Assembly (NCBI RefSeq): GCF_014203045.1
Contig: NZ_JACHIF010000006.1
Location: 62,001-126,000 of the forward strand
Direction: 5' to 3'
DNA length: 64,000 bases
DNA from: Prosthecobacter dejongeii
GTDB taxonomy: Bacteria; Verrucomicrobiota; Verrucomicrobiia; Verrucomicrobiales; Verrucomicrobiaceae
Under the pieces are notes generated by a model. That model did no database searches. It saw only the letters and a list, made by a program, of their open reading frames with translations, and was not told the DNA's origin. Position 1 is the first letter of the stretch. Each line of letters starts with the position of its first letter. Made by a program: the position numbers and the translations under genes. Below, one piece after another: positions 23,625-38,927 of this stretch.

Positions 23625-24200
23625 ATGTCCGCCGCCACTTTTCTGCATGAATTCGTCCGTAATTGGAAGACCGTCGGCGCGGTGGCACCTTCCAGCGCCG
23701 CTTTGGCCTCCCGCATGATGGAATCTGCCGAAGTGGGCAAGGCCCGCCATGTGCTGGAACTGGGCCCCGGTACCGGCGCTTTCACAGAGGCCATTTTGGA
23801 TTCCATGCCTCATGGTTCCAGCTACCTGGGCATTGAGCTGAATGAGACCTTTGTCACTCAGCTCAAGACGCGTTTTCCCACCATGAACTTCCACATCGCG
23901 GGGGCGCAGGAGTTTGATTTCGCCAGTTACTTGGCGGATCGCGAGCCCTTTGATGTCATCGTCAGTGGTCTGCCGTGGACAGCTTTCCCACGCGGGTTGC
24001 AGGAGGCGATTTTGGGCAACGTGCTGCCGCATTTGCGTGATGGTGGGCGCTTCGCTACCTTCGCCTACTACGGCTTTCATCGGCTGCCCAGTGGTCAGCG
24101 TTTCCGAGGCCTGCTGCATGACCTCCTGCCCGGGGTGGAAACCAGCCGTGTGGTGTGGGGCAATGTGCCGCCGGCGTTTGTTTACGTGGCGCGTAAGTAA
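23625..24200 (+). CDS. Class I SAM methyltransferase (phospholipid N-methyltransferase / KsgA-like)
   Basis: This is a Rossmann-fold methyltransferase of 191 residues. SAM-binding motif I is VLELGPGTGAFT, with an acidic residue at the end of the next strand in YLGIELNE and a later motif VIVSGLPWTAFP. The N-terminal FLHEFVRNWKTVGAVAPSS is characteristic of bacterial enzymes annotated as phospholipid N-methyltransferase (PmtA-like), which methylate phosphatidylethanolamine. rRNA dimethylase relatives share the core. The ATG chosen matches the start of this signature. It stands divergent from the lipoprotein gene and converges with recG. Confidence 0.78.
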   Translation: MSAATFLHEFVRNWKTVGAVAPSSAALASRMMESAEVGKARHVLELGPGTGAFTEAILDSMPHGSSYLGIELNETFVTQLKTRFPTMNFHIAGAQEFDFASYLADREPFDVIVSGLPWTAFPRGLQEAILGNVLPHLRDGGRFATFAYYGFHRLPSGQRFRGLLHDLLPGVETSRVVWGNVPPAFVYVARK

Positions 24201-24204
24201 CGCC

Positions 24205-26868
24205 TCACTGCATCATCGCCTGCGGGGTGTCTTCCTGGAACACAAAGGGCCGCAGCTCTGCCAGTCGCGGGGCCTGCATTTGGGGGTCTTCATCCAGGGT
24301 TTTTTCTGCGAGTTGGCGCGCCAGCCGCACCAGGCGGGTATCTGCCAGCAGCTCGGCGAATTTCAGCGGTGCTTGCCCGCTCTGGGCTTTGCCCAGCACA
24401 TCTCCCGGCCCCCGGCGCTTCAGGTCTTCCTCCGAGATGCGAAATCCATCCGTGGTCTCTTCCATGATAGCTAGGCGGGATTTCGCCTCCTCATCTTTAT
24501 CCTTCACAAAGAGCACGCAGTAAGAGGTGTGCTCACCACGGCCAATGCGGCCGCGCAACTGATGTAACTGCGCGAGGCCAAATCGCTCGGCATTGTGAAT
24601 GTACATCACCGTGGCATTCGGAACATCCACACCCACCTCGATGACGGTGGTGGAGACCAGCACATCCAGCTTGCCAGCGCGGAAGTCCCGCATCACCAGC
24701 TCTTTCTCTTCGCTACTCAGTTTTCCGTGCAGTAGGCCTACCTGGAAGTGTGGTAAAAGTTTTGTCCATTCCTCATGGCCTTTTTTGGCCGCTGTCGCAT
24801 CCAGCTTTTCAGACTCTTCGATAAGTGGGTACACGAGGTAGCCTTGGCGGCCTTCCTCCAGTTGTTCTTTCAGAAATTTGGCGGCTTCCTTTTGCTTCGT
24901 GGCCGGGCGCACTTTGGTGATGATCTTGCCGCGCTCTTTGGGCCGCTCATCAATGGTGGAGACATCCAAGTCCCCATAGATTGTCAAGGTGAGGGTGCGG
25001 GGAATGGGCGTGGCTGTCATTACCAGCACATCCGGCGTATTGCCCTTCTGAATCAAACGCGCACGCTGGGCCACGCCAAATTTGTGCTGCTCATCAATCA
25101 CCACCAAACCCAGGTTCCGCACCAGTTCCTCGTCATGCAGCAGCGCATGCGTGCCAATGACGATTTCCGGGCCTTTTTTACATGGAGCGCACGCGTCTCG
25201 CGTGCTGAGTTCTGCGTCCCGCGGAACTCCGTCCAAGGGAGGCCATAACCACTCATACTCCTGCGCATGAGTGACGAGGCCTTCCTCACGAGGATTGCTA
25301 ACGATGTACCCAAAGGTCTCTTGCAGGTCTGCCTCAGAACGAATGAGCCTGTCAAAGGTCTCCTTTTCCCAAACACGCGCGTCTTCCCACCCCAATTTTA
25401 GGATGGCTTTCGAGCTAAAAGATTTGATGGAATGCAGCAGTTCGCCCAATGGATAAAACACTGGATCACCTGTCTCGGGGTCACGATTTTTCACCCCTGG
25501 TTCCAAAAGCAAATGTACATGATCAGGCATCACACAGGCCGCATACAGTTGGTAGCGCTGCCCATGGAAATGCAGCACTGCCTCAAGAGCAAGCTTGCGG
25601 GCCTCCGGTGGCAAGGGTCTTCTCAATGCCGTTGTAAACGTTAGAAAATACTTCCCCCAAGGACGCTCGAAGTGGGGGAGGCGTCGTTTGGCATAGTGTA
25701 CCTCGCGGGCGGTCTTGAGAACGGTTTCCCGCGAGACGCGTGAAACAGCCTGCGGGACGCGTGCGCTCCATAGCTCAGTCCCCCCATCCTCTGCCCTCGT
25801 TCCGGTGCGTAGAGAAACATTCAGGCCCAGTGGCTCCAGCCACTTGCGTGCGGTGAGGAAATGCTGCTCGGCCAGAATCTGCGTGGGGGCCATCATGGCG
25901 GCTTGTTTGCCCGCCTCCACCGCGCCAAGCATGGCCGCAAAAGCCACCACCGTTTTGCCACTGCCCACATCCCCGTGCAGGAGGCGATTCATCGGCGCGT
26001 TGCTGGCCATGTCGCGTTGGATCTCTTCCAGCGAGCGCTTCTGCGCGCCCGTCATTTGAAAGGGCAGGGAGGCCTCAAACTCCTGCGCCAGTGGGCCGGC
26101 TGCATGTGCGTGACCGCCGGATTCTAACACCGCGCGCCTCCGCCGCACCACCCGCAGTTGATAGCCATAAAACTCCTCCAGGGCCAGGTAACGACGGGCC
26201 TTCTCCAGGTCCTCCATCGTCTCCGTGAAATGCACCGCCTTGATGGCCCGCGCACGGCTCCAGCCGGCGAACTCTCCCTGCTGGCTCGGAGGCGGTAAAA
26301 GATCGCGGGTAAAGTCCTCGCCCAGCGACTGCATGACATGCCAGGTCGCCGTGCGCAGCGTCTTCTGGGTCACGCCTGATTTCAGCCGATACACTGGCGT
26401 GATCCGGCCACTGTGGATGCGAGTGGTTTCCTCTTCATCCCCCAGCACCTCATACTCCGGGTGATCCATCAGCAGGCGATCCTTGTACTCCTTGACCTTG
26501 CCGTAGATGATCAGTTCTTGACCCTCCGCGATGGCCCGGCTCATGAACGGCATGTTCCACCAGCGCAGCGTCAGCAGACCACCCATGGCCGCGCCGCCGA
26601 TGGGCTCCACCTGCGCCTCAAACAGCCCCGCCCCGCGCCGGGCACCGAAGTATTTGTTCCCCGTTTTCGTCACCTGCACCTGGTAGCAGGCAGGCAGTTC
26701 ACTGACCTGAAAGGTGGCCCCCTCCATCTGCCGCCGGTCTTCATGGCGGAAGGGCAGCCAGTTCACGATCTCTCCCACCGTCATGACTTGCTCCTTGGCC
26801 AGTGCCTTCACCACCCGGGAGGACAGGCCGGGAACATCAGAAAGGGAGGCGTCTAGAGCGAGGGGCAT
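24205..26868 (-). CDS. recG: RecG DNA helicase interrupted in frame by a RAYT transposase domain
   Basis: RecG remodels stalled replication forks and Holliday junctions. The N-terminal wedge/OB domain (about 1-230) and the helicase core are present, with Walker A HGDVGSGKT at 298-306, DEQHKFG near 592-598, TATPIPRTL, and GRIGRGEHTSYC further on. Residues 367-562 do not belong to RecG. They encode a complete REP-associated Y1 transposase (HUH at 450-452, Y521 in YIVSNP) and its palindromic ends, placed in the variable loop between the TGTR segment and IVIGTHALL. The insert is exactly 196 codons, so the frame is kept. Removing it leaves about 691 residues, the normal RecG size. Every helicase motif looks intact, so the fusion may be functional. 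Confidence 0.93.
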   Translation of the reverse strand: MPLALDASLSDVPGLSSRVVKALAKEQVMTVGEIVNWLPFRHEDRRQMEGATFQVSELPACYQVQVTKTGNKYFGARRGAGLFEAQVEPIGGAAMGGLLTLRWWNMPFMSRAIAEGQELIIYGKVKEYKDRLLMDHPEYEVLGDEEETTRIHSGRITPVYRLKSGVTQKTLRTATWHVMQSLGEDFTRDLLPPPSQQGEFAGWSRARAIKAVHFTETMEDLEKARRYLALEEFYGYQLRVVRRRRAVLESGGHAHAAGPLAQEFEASLPFQMTGAQKRSLEEIQRDMASNAPMNRLLHGDVGSGKTVVAFAAMLGAVEAGKQAAMMAPTQILAEQHFLTARKWLEPLGLNVSLRTGTRAEDGGTELWSARVPQAVSRVSRETVLKTAREVHYAKRRLPHFERPWGKYFLTFTTALRRPLPPEARKLALEAVLHFHGQRYQLYAACVMPDHVHLLLEPGVKNRDPETGDPVFYPLGELLHSIKSFSSKAILKLGWEDARVWEKETFDRLIRSEADLQETFGYIVSNPREEGLVTHAQEYEWLWPPLDGVPRDAELSTRDACAPCKKGPEIVIGTHALLHDEELVRNLGLVVIDEQHKFGVAQRARLIQKGNTPDVLVMTATPIPRTLTLTIYGDLDVSTIDERPKERGKIITKVRPATKQKEAAKFLKEQLEEGRQGYLVYPLIEESEKLDATAAKKGHEEWTKLLPHFQVGLLHGKLSSEEKELVMRDFRAGKLDVLVSTTVIEVGVDVPNATVMYIHNAERFGLAQLHQLRGRIGRGEHTSYCVLFVKDKDEEAKSRLAIMEETTDGFRISEEDLKRRGPGDVLGKAQSGQAPLKFAELLADTRLVRLARQLAEKTLDEDPQMQAPRLAELRPFVFQEDTPQAMMQ
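25182..25229. repeat. REP-like double hairpin, recG element end A
   Basis: Hairpin 1 is GCACGCG-TCT-CGCGTGC (7 bp). Hairpin 2 is GAGTTC plus GCG around a TCC loop, paired with CGC and GAACTC (10 bp including one wobble). The first 16 bp (ATGGAGCGCACGCGTC) recur inverted at the other end of the element. Confidence 0.88.
25183..25770 (-). mobile_element. RAYT element (Y1 transposase with REP-like ends) inside recG
   Basis: This is a 588-bp element translated in frame with recG. The protein resembles REP-associated tyrosine transposases: KYFLTFTTALRRPLPPEAR, the HUH metal site MPDHVHLLL, and YIVSNPREEGLV holding the nucleophilic tyrosine (by analogy with Y115 of E. coli RAYT). Its ends are inverted copies of TGGAGCGCACGCGTC, each followed by two hairpins, with the tetranucleotide GGAG at the foot; RAYTs recognise GTAG-like tetranucleotides at REP bases. 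No target duplication is seen, as expected for HUH elements. There is no stop at either end and no convincing independent ATG, so expression is probably only as part of RecG. Confidence 0.88.
25724..25771. repeat. REP-like double hairpin, recG element end B
   Basis: Inner hairpin: GTTTC, one mismatch, CGCG, loop AGA, CGCG, GAAAC. Outer imperfect hairpin: GCCTGCG-GGA-CGCGTGC. It ends with GACGCGTGCGCTCCAT, the exact inverse of end A. Confidence 0.85.
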
Positions 26869-26959
26869 GAACGAAAAAGGAACGGCAGGAATGGAAAAGA
26901 TGGCTCGCCTTTCCGGTTAATCTTTAAAATCTTGTTCCACCTGCCAAAAATCATCCGTC

Positions 26960-27901
26960 ATGACCACCGGCCTGCACCTCGCCCCTCACTACACGGATCA
27001 CGATCCCGGCCCTGGCCATCCGGAAAGCCCCGCCCGGTACACCGCCATTCTGAAGGCTCTAGGCTCCTCCGGCCTGCTGCCAAAGCTGGCCTCCATCCCC
27101 AGTCGCCAAGCGGAGATGCCTGAAATGGAACTCTGCCATCCGCGCCACTACATTGAACTGGCTCGGGATGAAGTCGCCGCTGGGCTGGATACCCTCAGCA
27201 CTGGCGATACCCAGATCTGCGAAAAGAGCTACACCGTGGCTACCCATGCCGTGGGGGCTGTGCTGAATGCTGTGGATGCCGTCATGACGGGCAAACTTAG
27301 CCGCGCCTTTTGCGCCGTGCGTCCTCCTGGCCACCACGCCCGGCCTGCTCAGGGCATGGGCTTTTGCCTGTTTAATAACATCGCCGTCGGCGCCCGCCAC
27401 GCGCAGAAAAAACACAACGCTGCCAGGGTGGCCATCGTGGATTGGGATGTCCATCATGGCAATGGCACCCAGGACATCTTCTACGATGACGGCAGCGTGC
27501 TCTTTGCCAGCACCCATCAGTCACCCTGGTACCCCGGCACTGGCGCGCGGGAAGAAACGGGCGCGGGGAAAGGCCTGGGTACCACCCTGAATTTCCCCTT
27601 TGCTGCCGGGGCCGGTATGAAACATATCGGTGCAGCGTTTCAAGATCACCTGCTGCCCGCGCTCGCTCGCTTCAAGCCCGATCTCATCATGATCTCCGCC
27701 GGCTTTGACTCCCGCGTGGACGATCCTCTCGGCCATTTCAAACTCACCGATGACGACTTTGCGCAGCTCACCCGCTGGCTCATGGTCGCTGCGGATGAGC
27801 ACTGCCAAGGCCGCCTCATCTCCGTCCTCGAAGGAGGTTACAATCTCACCGGTTTGGCCAGTGCCGTGACCTCGCATGTGGGAGCGTTGGTCGGAGACTA
27901 A
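26960..27901 (+). CDS. Histone deacetylase-family (AcuC/HDAC-like) amidohydrolase
   Basis: This is a zinc-dependent deacetylase of the arginase/HDAC fold. PPGHHA holds the catalytic H125/H126 pair, and VDWDVHHGNGT gives the zinc ligands D163 and H165. A further aspartate lies in SAGFDSRVDDPLG near residue 250, and LEGGYN closes the active site. Length (313) is typical of bacterial class II-like members, which remove acetyl groups from lysines, polyamines or other acylamides. The substrate cannot be deduced. It is monocistronic and converges with the AbrB-type gene. Confidence 0.9.
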   Translation: MTTGLHLAPHYTDHDPGPGHPESPARYTAILKALGSSGLLPKLASIPSRQAEMPEMELCHPRHYIELARDEVAAGLDTLSTGDTQICEKSYTVATHAVGAVLNAVDAVMTGKLSRAFCAVRPPGHHARPAQGMGFCLFNNIAVGARHAQKKHNAARVAIVDWDVHHGNGTQDIFYDDGSVLFASTHQSPWYPGTGAREETGAGKGLGTTLNFPFAAGAGMKHIGAAFQDHLLPALARFKPDLIMISAGFDSRVDDPLGHFKLTDDDFAQLTRWLMVAADEHCQGRLISVLEGGYNLTGLASAVTSHVGALVGD

Positions 27902-35648: not shown

Positions 35649-38600
35649 TTAGGCTTTCTCAAACACAGGCTTCCCGTCCTTCATCGTGGCGGTGATGACA
35701 TCGCCATCTTTAAAGCCGCCCTCCAGCACGGCCAGGCTGAGCGGATCCAGCAGGTGTTTCTGGATGGCGCGCTTCAGTGGACGAGCTCCAAACACGGGAT
35801 CAAACCCAGCATCCGCCAGATAGCGGGTGGTGTCATCCGTGACGGTGAGGTGGATGTTTTGCTTGGCCAAACGAGTGATCACGCGTTGGAGCTGGATCTT
35901 CACGATCTTGTCGAGCTGGGCTGCATCGAGCCGATCAAAGATAACGATTTCATCAATGCGGTTGAGAAACTCTGGCCGGAAGAATTGCTTCAGCGATTCT
36001 CGCACCAGGGCGTCTCGTTGCTCGGCATTGGTCACGTCCTGAATGGCGTTGCTGCCGATGTTGCTGGTCATGATGATTACCGTGTTTTTGAAGTCCACGG
36101 TGCGGCCCTGACCATCAGTGATGCGGCCATCGTCCAGCACTTGCAGTAGGCTGTTGAAGACATCCGGGTGGGCCTTTTCCACTTCGTCAAACAACACCAC
36201 GCTGTAAGGTCGGCGTCGCACGGCCTCGGTGAGCTGGCCGCCTTCATCATAACCGACGTAACCGGGAGGTGCCCCGATCAAACGGCTGACGCTGTGCTTC
36301 TCCATGTACTCGCTCATGTCAATGCGGGTCATGGCGTTTTCATCGTCAAAGAGAAACTCGGCCAGGGCCTTGCACAGCTCGGTCTTGCCCACGCCTGTGG
36401 GGCCTAAGAAAAGGAAACTGCCGATGGGGCGGTTCTCATCCTGGATGCCCGCACGCGCACGTCGCACGGCATTGGAGACGGCCACGATGGCATCCCGCTG
36501 GCCGATCACACGGTCAGCCAAGCGTTCCTCCATTTTCGCCAGCTTGGACCGCTCGCCCTCTTGCAGGCGGGAGACGGGAATACCCGTCCAGTTCGCCACT
36601 ACGCGCGCGATGTCATCTTCGGTGACTTCTTCGCGAAGTAAGGGGGTAGAAGCGGCGCCCCCGCCGCTGCTTCCGGTGCCCGTGGCGCCCTCGCCACGCA
36701 GCCATACGGGTGGCTTTGCACCCGTGAGCTGACGCGGATTTTCCGCAATGTAATCGCGAAGCCGCTGGAGGGAACCGAGGCCCCGGACAATGTGGTCATA
36801 ACTCTCCTTTTGCCAGAAAGTGCCGCTCTGGCCGAGTTCTTCATTGATGCGTCGTGAGGTGATACTTTTCCACGCTTGCACAATATCGCTCAACGAGTGT
36901 CCAGGCTGTGGCCAAACGAGAACATGCACATGGTTAGGCATCACCACCAGAGCCTCCAGGGTGTAGTCAATGCCATCGCGGTTGCGGATCACTTCCTCCA
37001 CGATTTGGCGGATCTCTGGGCGGGCCAAAACGCAGGCTCCATGGCTTTCATCCAGCCATTTTTCCCACCGTCGGGAAAAGAGATCGGTGTATTCAGCCTT
37101 CTCCGCTTCGTTGTGTGGTTCGGGGTGCTGGTTTAGCCACTCCCGGCGTTCGCTCAGCCACTGGCTGACGCGTTCTTCCGGCATGGAATCCGCCGTCCGC
37201 CACGTGACGAAATACACGCTTCCGTCCTGCCGCCAATGCGGCAGGTTGCCACTGCGCACGCTGTCTATTTTGGCTTCGGGGTCGAAGTAGGTGTAGGGGG
37301 ATGAGGAGGGGCTTTGAGCGGCGGGGGCGCCGCTGGCACCGGGGTAAGCGACGAGGGCGTCGCTTCTACTGCTGCTCGCCAGCTTCTTCTCCAGGTCTGG
37401 AATGAGACCATACTGGATCTCTCCGGCACGACCGAAGTCGCCTCGACGTTGGGCTTGTTCCAGTTCCGTGCGCAGGCGATCAATCTCCTCCTTCACCTTC
37501 CGGCCCGCATCCACGGTTTCCTTCTCCTTCAGCCACTGGGCTTTCAGGGCGGAGGATTGCTCTTTGAGATCGGCGATTTCCTTCTCCAGCTTTTCCAGGC
37601 GGGTCTTGCTGGCAGGATCTTTTTCCTTTTTCAAAACCTGACGCTCCATCTCCCCTTGCATGACTTGGCGCTCGATGACGTCAATCTCCGTGGGCATGGA
37701 GTCCAGCTCGATCTTGATGCGGCTCGCCGCTTCATCCACCAGGTCAATGGCCTTGTCTGGCAGGAAGCGATCCGTGATGTAGCGGTTGCTCAGCGTGGCG
37801 GCAGCGATGATGGCCCCGTCCTGAATACGCACGCCGTGGTGCACCTCATAACGTTCCTTTAAACCACGCAGGATGGCGATGGTGTCTTCCACGCTCGGCT
37901 CACCCACCAGCACCGGTTGAAAGCGACGCTCCAGGGCTGGGTCCTTTTCGATGTATTTGCGGTATTCATCCAGCGTGGTCGCGCCGATGCAGCGCAGCTC
38001 CCCACGGGCCAATTGCGGCTTCAGCAGGTTGCCCGCATCCATGGCCCCTTCCGCCTTGCCTGCACCCACGATGGTGTGCAGCTCATCAATGAAAAGGATG
38101 ATTTCCCCCTCACTGCTGGTCACTTCTTTGAGGAAGGCTTTCAAACGTTCCTCGAACTCGCCACGGAACTTGGCCCCGGCCATCATGCCGCCCAGGTCCA
38201 TGCTGATGAGGCGTTTGCCTTTGAGAGAATCTGGCACGTCCCCGGCGACGATGCGGCGGGCCAGGCCTTCGGCGATGGCCGTCTTACCCACACCCGGTTC
38301 ACCGATGAGGACGGGATTGTTTTTGGTGCGGCGGCTCAGCACCTGCATCACGCGGCGAATCTCTTCATCGCGACCGATGACCGGATCAATCTTGCCCTGT
38401 TTCGCACGGGCGGTGAGGTCCGTGCCGTATTTTTCCAGGGTCTGGTACTTGCCTTCCGGGTCTTGGTCCACCACGCGCTGGCTGCCACGCACGGCGGCGA
38501 GGGCTTTGGAAACGGTTTCGTAAGTGAGGCCTGCCTGCTTCAGCAGGTCAGACACCTCAGACTTGGTCTTGAACAGAGCCAGGAGGATGTGCTCCACACT

Positions 38601-38927
38601 CAGGAAATCGTCCTTGAGTTTCTTCTGCTCATCTTCCGCCTTGGTCATGAGGTCGCGGAACTCGCTGGACAAGTAAAGACTGCCGGTCGCTCCCGTGACC
38701 TTGGGTTGGCGGTTCAGCAGTTGACTCAGTTGCTCGGGCAACTGGGCGGCCTTTTCAGGATTGACCGCTGCCTTTTCCAGCAACGGCTTGGTGAGGCCCC
38801 CTTCCTGGTCCAGCAGGGCGGACAGGAGATGGGCAGGTTTGACTTCTTGATGCCCATGGCGCGTGGCCACAGACTGCGAGGCATTGAAGGCCTCTTGGAG
38901 CTTAACGGTAAATTTTTCAGGAGACAT
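35649..38927 (-). CDS. clpB: ClpB disaggregase interrupted in frame by a RAYT transposase domain
   Basis: ClpB is a hexameric AAA+ machine that rescues aggregated proteins with DnaK. The N-domain covers 1-145, NBD1 has Walker A GEPGVGKT at 209-216 and Walker B LFIDE at 278-282, and the coiled M-domain spans about 405-517. NBD2 has Walker A GPTGVGKT at 842-849. Between the end of the M-domain (DLEKKLASS) and the start of NBD2 ([16 protein letters not shown]) lie about 241 foreign residues, a full RAYT with HVH at 666-668 and Y726. Without the insert the protein would be about 851 residues, typical for ClpB. All ATPase motifs look intact. The insertion sits at the hinge between the two rings, so effects on activity are uncertain. 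Confidence 0.93.
36646..36697. repeat. REP-like double hairpin, clpB element end A
   Basis: GTAGA, then AGCGGCG-CCCC-CGCCGCT (7-bp perfect stem), CCGGTGCC, then GTGGCG-CCCT-CGCCAC (6-bp perfect stem). Confidence 0.9.
37317..37369. repeat. REP-like double hairpin, clpB element end B
   Basis: AGCGGCG-GGGG-CGCCGCT (7-bp stem), GGCACCGG, then AAGCGACG-AGGG-CGTCGCTT (8-bp stem), ending CTAC. Read on the minus strand it begins GTAGAAGCG and matches end A in hairpin order, loop size and the CCGGTGCC spacer. Confidence 0.9.

Follow-up and report, generated by a model that had tools for sequence, protein, structure and literature searches.

A RAYT transposase in frame inside RecG of Prosthecobacter dejongeii, and its relatives inside other core proteins of Verrucomicrobiota

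How can a whole transposase be read as part of a DNA-repair helicase, and what keeps it there? The question is raised by recG in a stretch of 64,000 nucleotides (nt) of Prosthecobacter dejongeii (contig NZ_JACHIF010000006.1, positions 62,001 to 126,000; the window hereafter), in which a RAYT transposase, flanked by repetitive extragenic palindromes (REPs), lies in frame between the two parts of RecG. Our analysis suggests that this RAYT is probably synthesised solely as a domain within RecG, and that it persists there as a selfish guest which is predicted not to be spliced out. The sequences point to this through the open fusion, the recurrence at fixed sites of the hosts, the purifying selection on the transposase and the covarying end hairpins. 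The features are given in Table 1.

Table 1. Features of the recG and clpB loci, in positions of the window
Feature	Position	Strand	Remark
recG open reading frame with in-frame RAYT, 887 amino acids (aa)	24205..26868	-	RecG start to RecG stop, open through the insert
Inserted RAYT element	25183..25770	-	aa 367-562 of the fused RecG
RAYT core	25243..25686	-	aa 395-542
HVH (HUH) motif	25513..25521	-	aa 450-452
Predicted catalytic tyrosine	25306..25308	-	Y521
Upstream REP end (host 5' side)	25721..25771	-	hairpins partly decayed in the window copy; encodes the linker SARVPQAVSRVSRET
Downstream REP end	25182..25232	+	two hairpins
clpB open reading frame with a second, different in-frame RAYT	35649..38927	-	
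RAYT element in clpB	36646..37369	-	55-nt inverted ends starting GTAG

The fusion is a single open reading frame (ORF), as an earlier model reading of the letters alone (the sequence-only reading) had proposed. RecG family models of Pfam and NCBIfam score on either side of the insert, and between these RecG parts aa 399-540 match NF047646, a model of REP transposases. The guest is open at both sides: the window insert has no stop codon, and all nine copies of the genus lack an in-frame ATG, GTG or TTG from the upstream tag to the KRR of the core, and hence the guest in its entirety can only be made within RecG. The length of exactly 196 codons agrees with the 588 nt of 25183..25770 but not with the 586 nt from GGAG tag to GGAG tag; the frame is preserved both ways. 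The RecG motifs GSGKT (302-306) and DEQH (592-595) are retained as had been claimed, and so are H450 and H452 of the guest and its tyrosine, which sits in a Y-I-x-x-N-P motif; all of them are invariant in the 29 aligned fused RecGs. No second RecG that could replace the fused one was found in this genome (G000; 96% complete, 22 contigs) in a search with the fused protein, and the next-best match, with 39% identity over 267 aa, lies in a 1168-aa frame that is Mfd-like.

We class the guest as a RAYT by motif and predicted fold, with the HUH motif and the single catalytic tyrosine of the Y..NP type that mark the family. It scores 70.4 bits with NF047646 in the fusion and 74.6 in a six-frame search, below the cut-off of 80, which is a threshold of that model and not a defining feature of RAYTs. 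Pfam Y1_Tnp has no match in the window protein at 1e-3 and does match relatives, and a sequence search of the PDB gave chance matches only. Foldseek with the whole fusion returned RecG and other helicases, and we therefore folded the guest alone; its predicted fold is like that of E. coli TnpA_REP (4er8). The predicted local distance difference test is below 50 at aa 362-397 and 546-565, which are mostly encoded by the REPs, suggesting that the RAYT would hang off the helicase by two flexible linkers. The 887-aa protein has no intein or HINT family in the Pfam rows or in the best 25 of 41 NCBIfam rows, and Rfam gives no intron family in 24100-27000 up to E 0.5. Two sub-threshold matches of other kinds were observed in that Rfam scan, both on recG sequence outside the insert, i.e. 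Ysr141 at 25789-26037 (+; 34.9 bits, gathering 196) and Lambda_thermo (28.7 bits, gathering 50). The guest would thus lead an intein-like life with no splicing domain found, and we do not class it as an intein.

The same fusion is carried by other RecGs of the genus. We searched G000 and 55 relatives for RecG with the fused protein. The fusion is present in nine of 48 genus genomes (G000, G033, G056, G057, G023, G012, G013, G026 and G016), with all frames open. An assembly artefact at this locus, named by the sequence-only reading as a way to be wrong, is ruled out because equal fusions occur in other genomes and in metagenomes. The empty sites that it had asked for were also found: among the 28 RecG loci read, 20 lack the insert, seven have it, and one (L038 of G034) retains the upstream REP alone, a scar of about 17 aa that keeps the frame. 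A collapse in the fragmented assembly may also account for this scar; P0005, a near-identical relative of G034, has the complete insert. The RecG of Prosthecobacter fusiformis (P0011) has the RAYT as well and is at zero distance from G056, which makes it probable that the two are one species. As had been claimed, RecG alignments place the insert in a variable loop, which has the TG(T/S/A)R segment on one side and I(V/I)xGTHAL on the other. Its border shifts by several residues from one RecG to another, and the REP ends are of differing sequence types. The REP-encoded linkers that flank the RAYT have grown into repeated segments in P0026, P0027, P0028 and P0035.

Close relatives of this RAYT are found mostly inside core proteins. 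When proteins of about 488-1552 aa were searched with the guest part, 1660 of 2093 candidates proved to be relatives at E<=1e-5, and all of the 120 listed have a RAYT domain. The hosts of these 120 are alanyl-tRNA synthetase (AlaRS; 48), RecG (36), CarB (26), threonyl-tRNA synthetase (ThrRS; 7) and MetH (3). Ten of the 120, all AlaRS, hold two RAYTs (P0002, P0003, P0004, P0006-P0009 and P0012-P0014); two more are L141 and L205, and the MetH of L184 likewise has two. A pattern match recovered both histidines and the tyrosine in 120 of the 130 listed domains, and by eye they are retained in six of the remaining ten. Six-frame reading of 385 class-level genomes with no length filter gave 44 matches at E<=1e-25 in 36 genomes, all in open frames of 698-1513 aa with no stops. 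In 387 phylum-level genomes, a sample that overlaps with the former, all eight matches at E<1e-40 are also in long open frames, and weaker matches are mixed, part in long frames and part free (212-257 aa). We retained 79 loci from 192 confirmed stretches in named genomes; 74 are in RecG, AlaRS, MetH, ThrRS or CarB, and one truncated locus was left unclassified. More distant RAYTs of the phylum sample (L111-L126) share long frames with IspG, LeuRS, ValRS, MetH, a pyridoxal phosphate-dependent decarboxylase, a radical S-adenosylmethionine protein and others. In JGI records, proteins of this kind already bear the name 'alanyl-tRNA synthetase/REP element-mobilizing transposase RayT'.

In most hosts the inserts recur at one or two fixed places. 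In host-only alignments, in which proteins and loci in part duplicate one another, 65 of 66 RecG inserts are at two adjacent columns, all 27 CarB inserts at one column, and all 12 ThrRS inserts at two adjacent columns; AlaRS has two places (25/92 and 64/92), and for MetH the count is 7 of 10. Residence in frame at recurrent sites of core proteins is a trait of inteins, and the RAYT lineage has it. The intein-like residence without splicing that had been proposed for RecG fits this evidence, and the habit is wider, taking in AlaRS, CarB, ThrRS and MetH.

Substitution ratios show that purifying selection acts on the RAYT core. Between G000 and G033 omega is 0.018 for the RAYT core (148 codons), with 0.039 and 0.006 for the two host parts, and the RAYT value rises up to 0.25 in wider pairs with finite dS (synonymous divergence). 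The dS of the RAYT exceeds that of the host in all five within-group pairs with host dS <1; the reverse is found in two distant pairs (G056-G016 and G023-G012), and many pairs are saturated. RAYT and RecG distances are closely correlated (Mantel r 0.95, reached in 0 of 2000 permutations; rho 0.77 and 0.88 within groups); in this genus the insert is thus of long standing and has been passed on mainly together with recG. We observed no wide co-conversion of host flanks of the kind left by homing; only the first 30 upstream codons differ, and these include insert residues through misalignment.

The RecG loop has probably been filled more than once. A tree of 175 RAYT domains, built on few columns and with heuristic labels for the AlaRS sites (the site counts above come from the host-only alignments), is clustered by host with 29 changes versus 109 in shuffles. 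Residence in RecG takes eight changes on it, at least five of them forced by starred branches, and these several origins are what suggests repeated filling. On the RecG tree the presence of the insert takes 14 changes, 9-10 of them forced by supported branches; L047 and L050 were dropped from this tree because their ORFs were misread, P0001 and P0018 were omitted as copies of L031 and L033, and P0011, P0024 and P0025 were kept although they are near copies of genome rows. The empty alleles of one clade have a common conserved loop, which is not expected from simple excision of filled alleles, and simple excision would therefore not account for the switch between filled and empty recG.

The ends of the element look like REPs that serve as DNA substrates. 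The sequence-only reading had given it exact inverted termini with double hairpins. The arms, 51 nt each, are in fact only 76% complementary, with an exact match in the outermost ~15 nt. The two hairpins hold for the downstream (right) end, where they are clean, with 7 and 10 bp (z -4.4), and not for the upstream (left) end, whose hairpins have decayed (z -0.6); its first hairpin is a perfect palindrome in the nearest relative, G033. For the REPs that flank RAYTs a tag of the GTAG type is expected; it reads GGAG in the window element and GGGTAG in several relatives. Across 83 distinct ends the hairpins covary, with 63% of positions paired versus 42% in shuffles, a comparison that is uncorrected for kinship among the ends and retains 37 of 146 ends with fewer than 5 of 7 pairs, which are probably wrong anchors. 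This covariation fits ends that are maintained as DNA substrates.

The RecG-borne enzyme would be the likely mobiliser of the REP set of G000, since this genome holds matching REPs and any other RAYT found in it reaches at most 39%. It has 41 further matches to the ends of the element at 34 distinct places, and its dispersed REPs are 83-98% like the right end. The end-hairpin pattern gives 29 matches, one of which is the element's own end. REPs beyond the element are found in all nine genomes with the insert versus 15 of 38 without it (p 2e-4, uncorrected and nominal only); two copies per element were subtracted for the own ends and G034 was excluded, and the count of G000 should be 28 rather than 27 as only one end of its element fits the pattern. 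In G018, which matches the REP pattern 14 times and lacks the RAYT, the empty recG site (L039) reads TGGAGCACG, resembling the tag of the element; this may be either a pre-insertion target or an excision scar.

We propose the following for the life of the guest. The element would insert, or survive, in loops that can bear a flexible extra domain at little cost. It is one frame from end to end, so that expression of the host would also express the guest, which by prediction projects from the helicase on its REP-encoded linkers. The host gene is useful, in the case of AlaRS and ThrRS even essential, so that a loss would have to be precise or in frame to survive, and this constraint would shield the guest much as splicing shields an intein. 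The fused enzyme may then nick its own ends and the dispersed REPs in single-stranded DNA.

Several observations weigh against this reading. The translation of the fusion, its RecG function and its transposase activity are predictions. RecG is dispensable in E. coli; the proposed hiding in essential genes thus suits AlaRS and ThrRS and less so RecG. The co-divergence of RAYT and RecG suggests that movement in the genus is old or rare, and the hairpins of the left REP have decayed in the window copy. A start-type codon is found at most 25 codons before the core in 34 of the 74 wider in-gene inserts (ATG in three, otherwise GTG or TTG), where the guest may have a separate start, and is missing in the other 40. 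A catalytic H or Y is gone from four of the 130 listed domains (P0014, P0100, P0032 and P0093). Four of the 79 retained loci are free-standing, in frames of 220-271 aa. A search for short relatives gave 289 at E<=1e-20 out of 378 candidates (~90-287 aa), some of which are pieces of hosts at contig ends, and none of the 120 listed is more than 57% identical to the query. Of the 38 genomes that lack the insert, 15 have dispersed REPs nonetheless, and the association of insert and REPs is lost with phylogenetically independent pairs (median p 0.25).

Could the domain be kept for the benefit of the host? Domestication, in which RecG, AlaRS, CarB, ThrRS and MetH would each profit from their RAYT domain, would explain the purifying selection, the invariant catalytic residues and the long co-divergence with RecG. 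We consider it unlikely, as the hosts have no function in common, the presence on the RecG tree is patchy, a few domains have lost their H or Y, and a domain serving the host would not need covarying end hairpins. The opposite idea, a passive relic that fell in frame by chance, was inherited vertically and is mobile nowhere now, draws on the same co-divergence and on the decayed left REP; it is the least probable of the alternatives, given an omega far below 1, the several RecG origins in the RAYT tree and the close likeness of the dispersed REPs to the right end.

The insert may instead be removed before or after translation, by RNA splicing, by protein splicing or by ribosomes that bypass it across the paired REP ends, to leave a normal RecG. 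The inverted REP ends could join the borders, and removal would account for the tolerance in core enzymes. An element excised as RNA would not need an open frame, which is kept in all 44 class-level matches, and the borders differ by several residues between RecGs; together with the scans that gave no intein and no intron family, this makes removal quite improbable to us. A selfish guest that is translated and stays in the protein accounts best for these observations.

The second RAYT of the window, in clpB about 10 kb from recG, belongs to another family. That family served as a control for the RecG-borne lineage and is mostly free-standing in the genus, with nine of 150 listed matches in frames of at least 490 aa, and a stop is present in six of the 150.

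Known systems resemble parts of this arrangement. Inteins with homing endonucleases are likewise in frame in core proteins, bound to sites as alleles, patchy in distribution and provided with a nuclease-type domain. They splice, whereas the guest has no intein family in the scans and no sign of removal. Known RAYTs (TnpA_REP) and REPtrons, which belong to the IS200/IS605-like Y1 transposases, have in common with the guest the HUH and Tyr residues, the predicted 4er8 fold, flanking REP hairpins (with the tag GGAG in the window element) and the genomic REPs; as far as the excerpts of the sources go, they are separate genes, while the lineage described here mostly forms part of a core protein. 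Earlier work has described RAYTs, in-frame REPs within ORFs and Rickettsia palindromic elements (RPEs) (PMC3733652, PMC10969869). RPEs and the REPs in ORFs of Opitutus terrae and others are selfish palindromic DNA translated in frame within unrelated genes, like the RecG insert. They are short (~150 bp for RPEs, about 20-82 aa for the REP regions) and have no transposase of their own, whereas here a whole transposase sits at fixed sites and is conserved by selection. Quentin et al. describe REPs inside tnpA_REP genes with the frame preserved. IStrons, which splice as group I introns (PMC4227781, in part), offer another case of an insertion sequence rendered harmless to its resident gene, and differ from the RecG insert in their intron RNA, as judged from the Rfam scan. 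Among open PMC papers, preprints not included, we found none that reports complete RAYTs residing in core genes.

A wider reading seems to us about evenly balanced between true and false. This RAYT lineage may have nearly abandoned the free-standing life to become a translated guest without start or stop, whose REP ends are read through in frame, and which occupies fixed 'alleles' of RecG, AlaRS (two sites), ThrRS, CarB and MetH across Verrucomicrobiota, where the host gene would express it and shield it against deletion, and from where it would run the REPs of the genome. Its members could then be called unspliced, transposase-based inteins.

Inteins and introns are considered to need splicing for their survival in core genes. 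This RAYT lineage seems to be tolerated as a flexible extra domain instead, even in enzymes as central as alanyl-tRNA synthetase. It would hence provide a natural catalogue of insertion-tolerant protein sites and a test case for selfish DNA turning into a protein domain. It also carries a warning, as the long 'fusion' proteins discarded from transposase surveys as errors may be the main habitat of this lineage.
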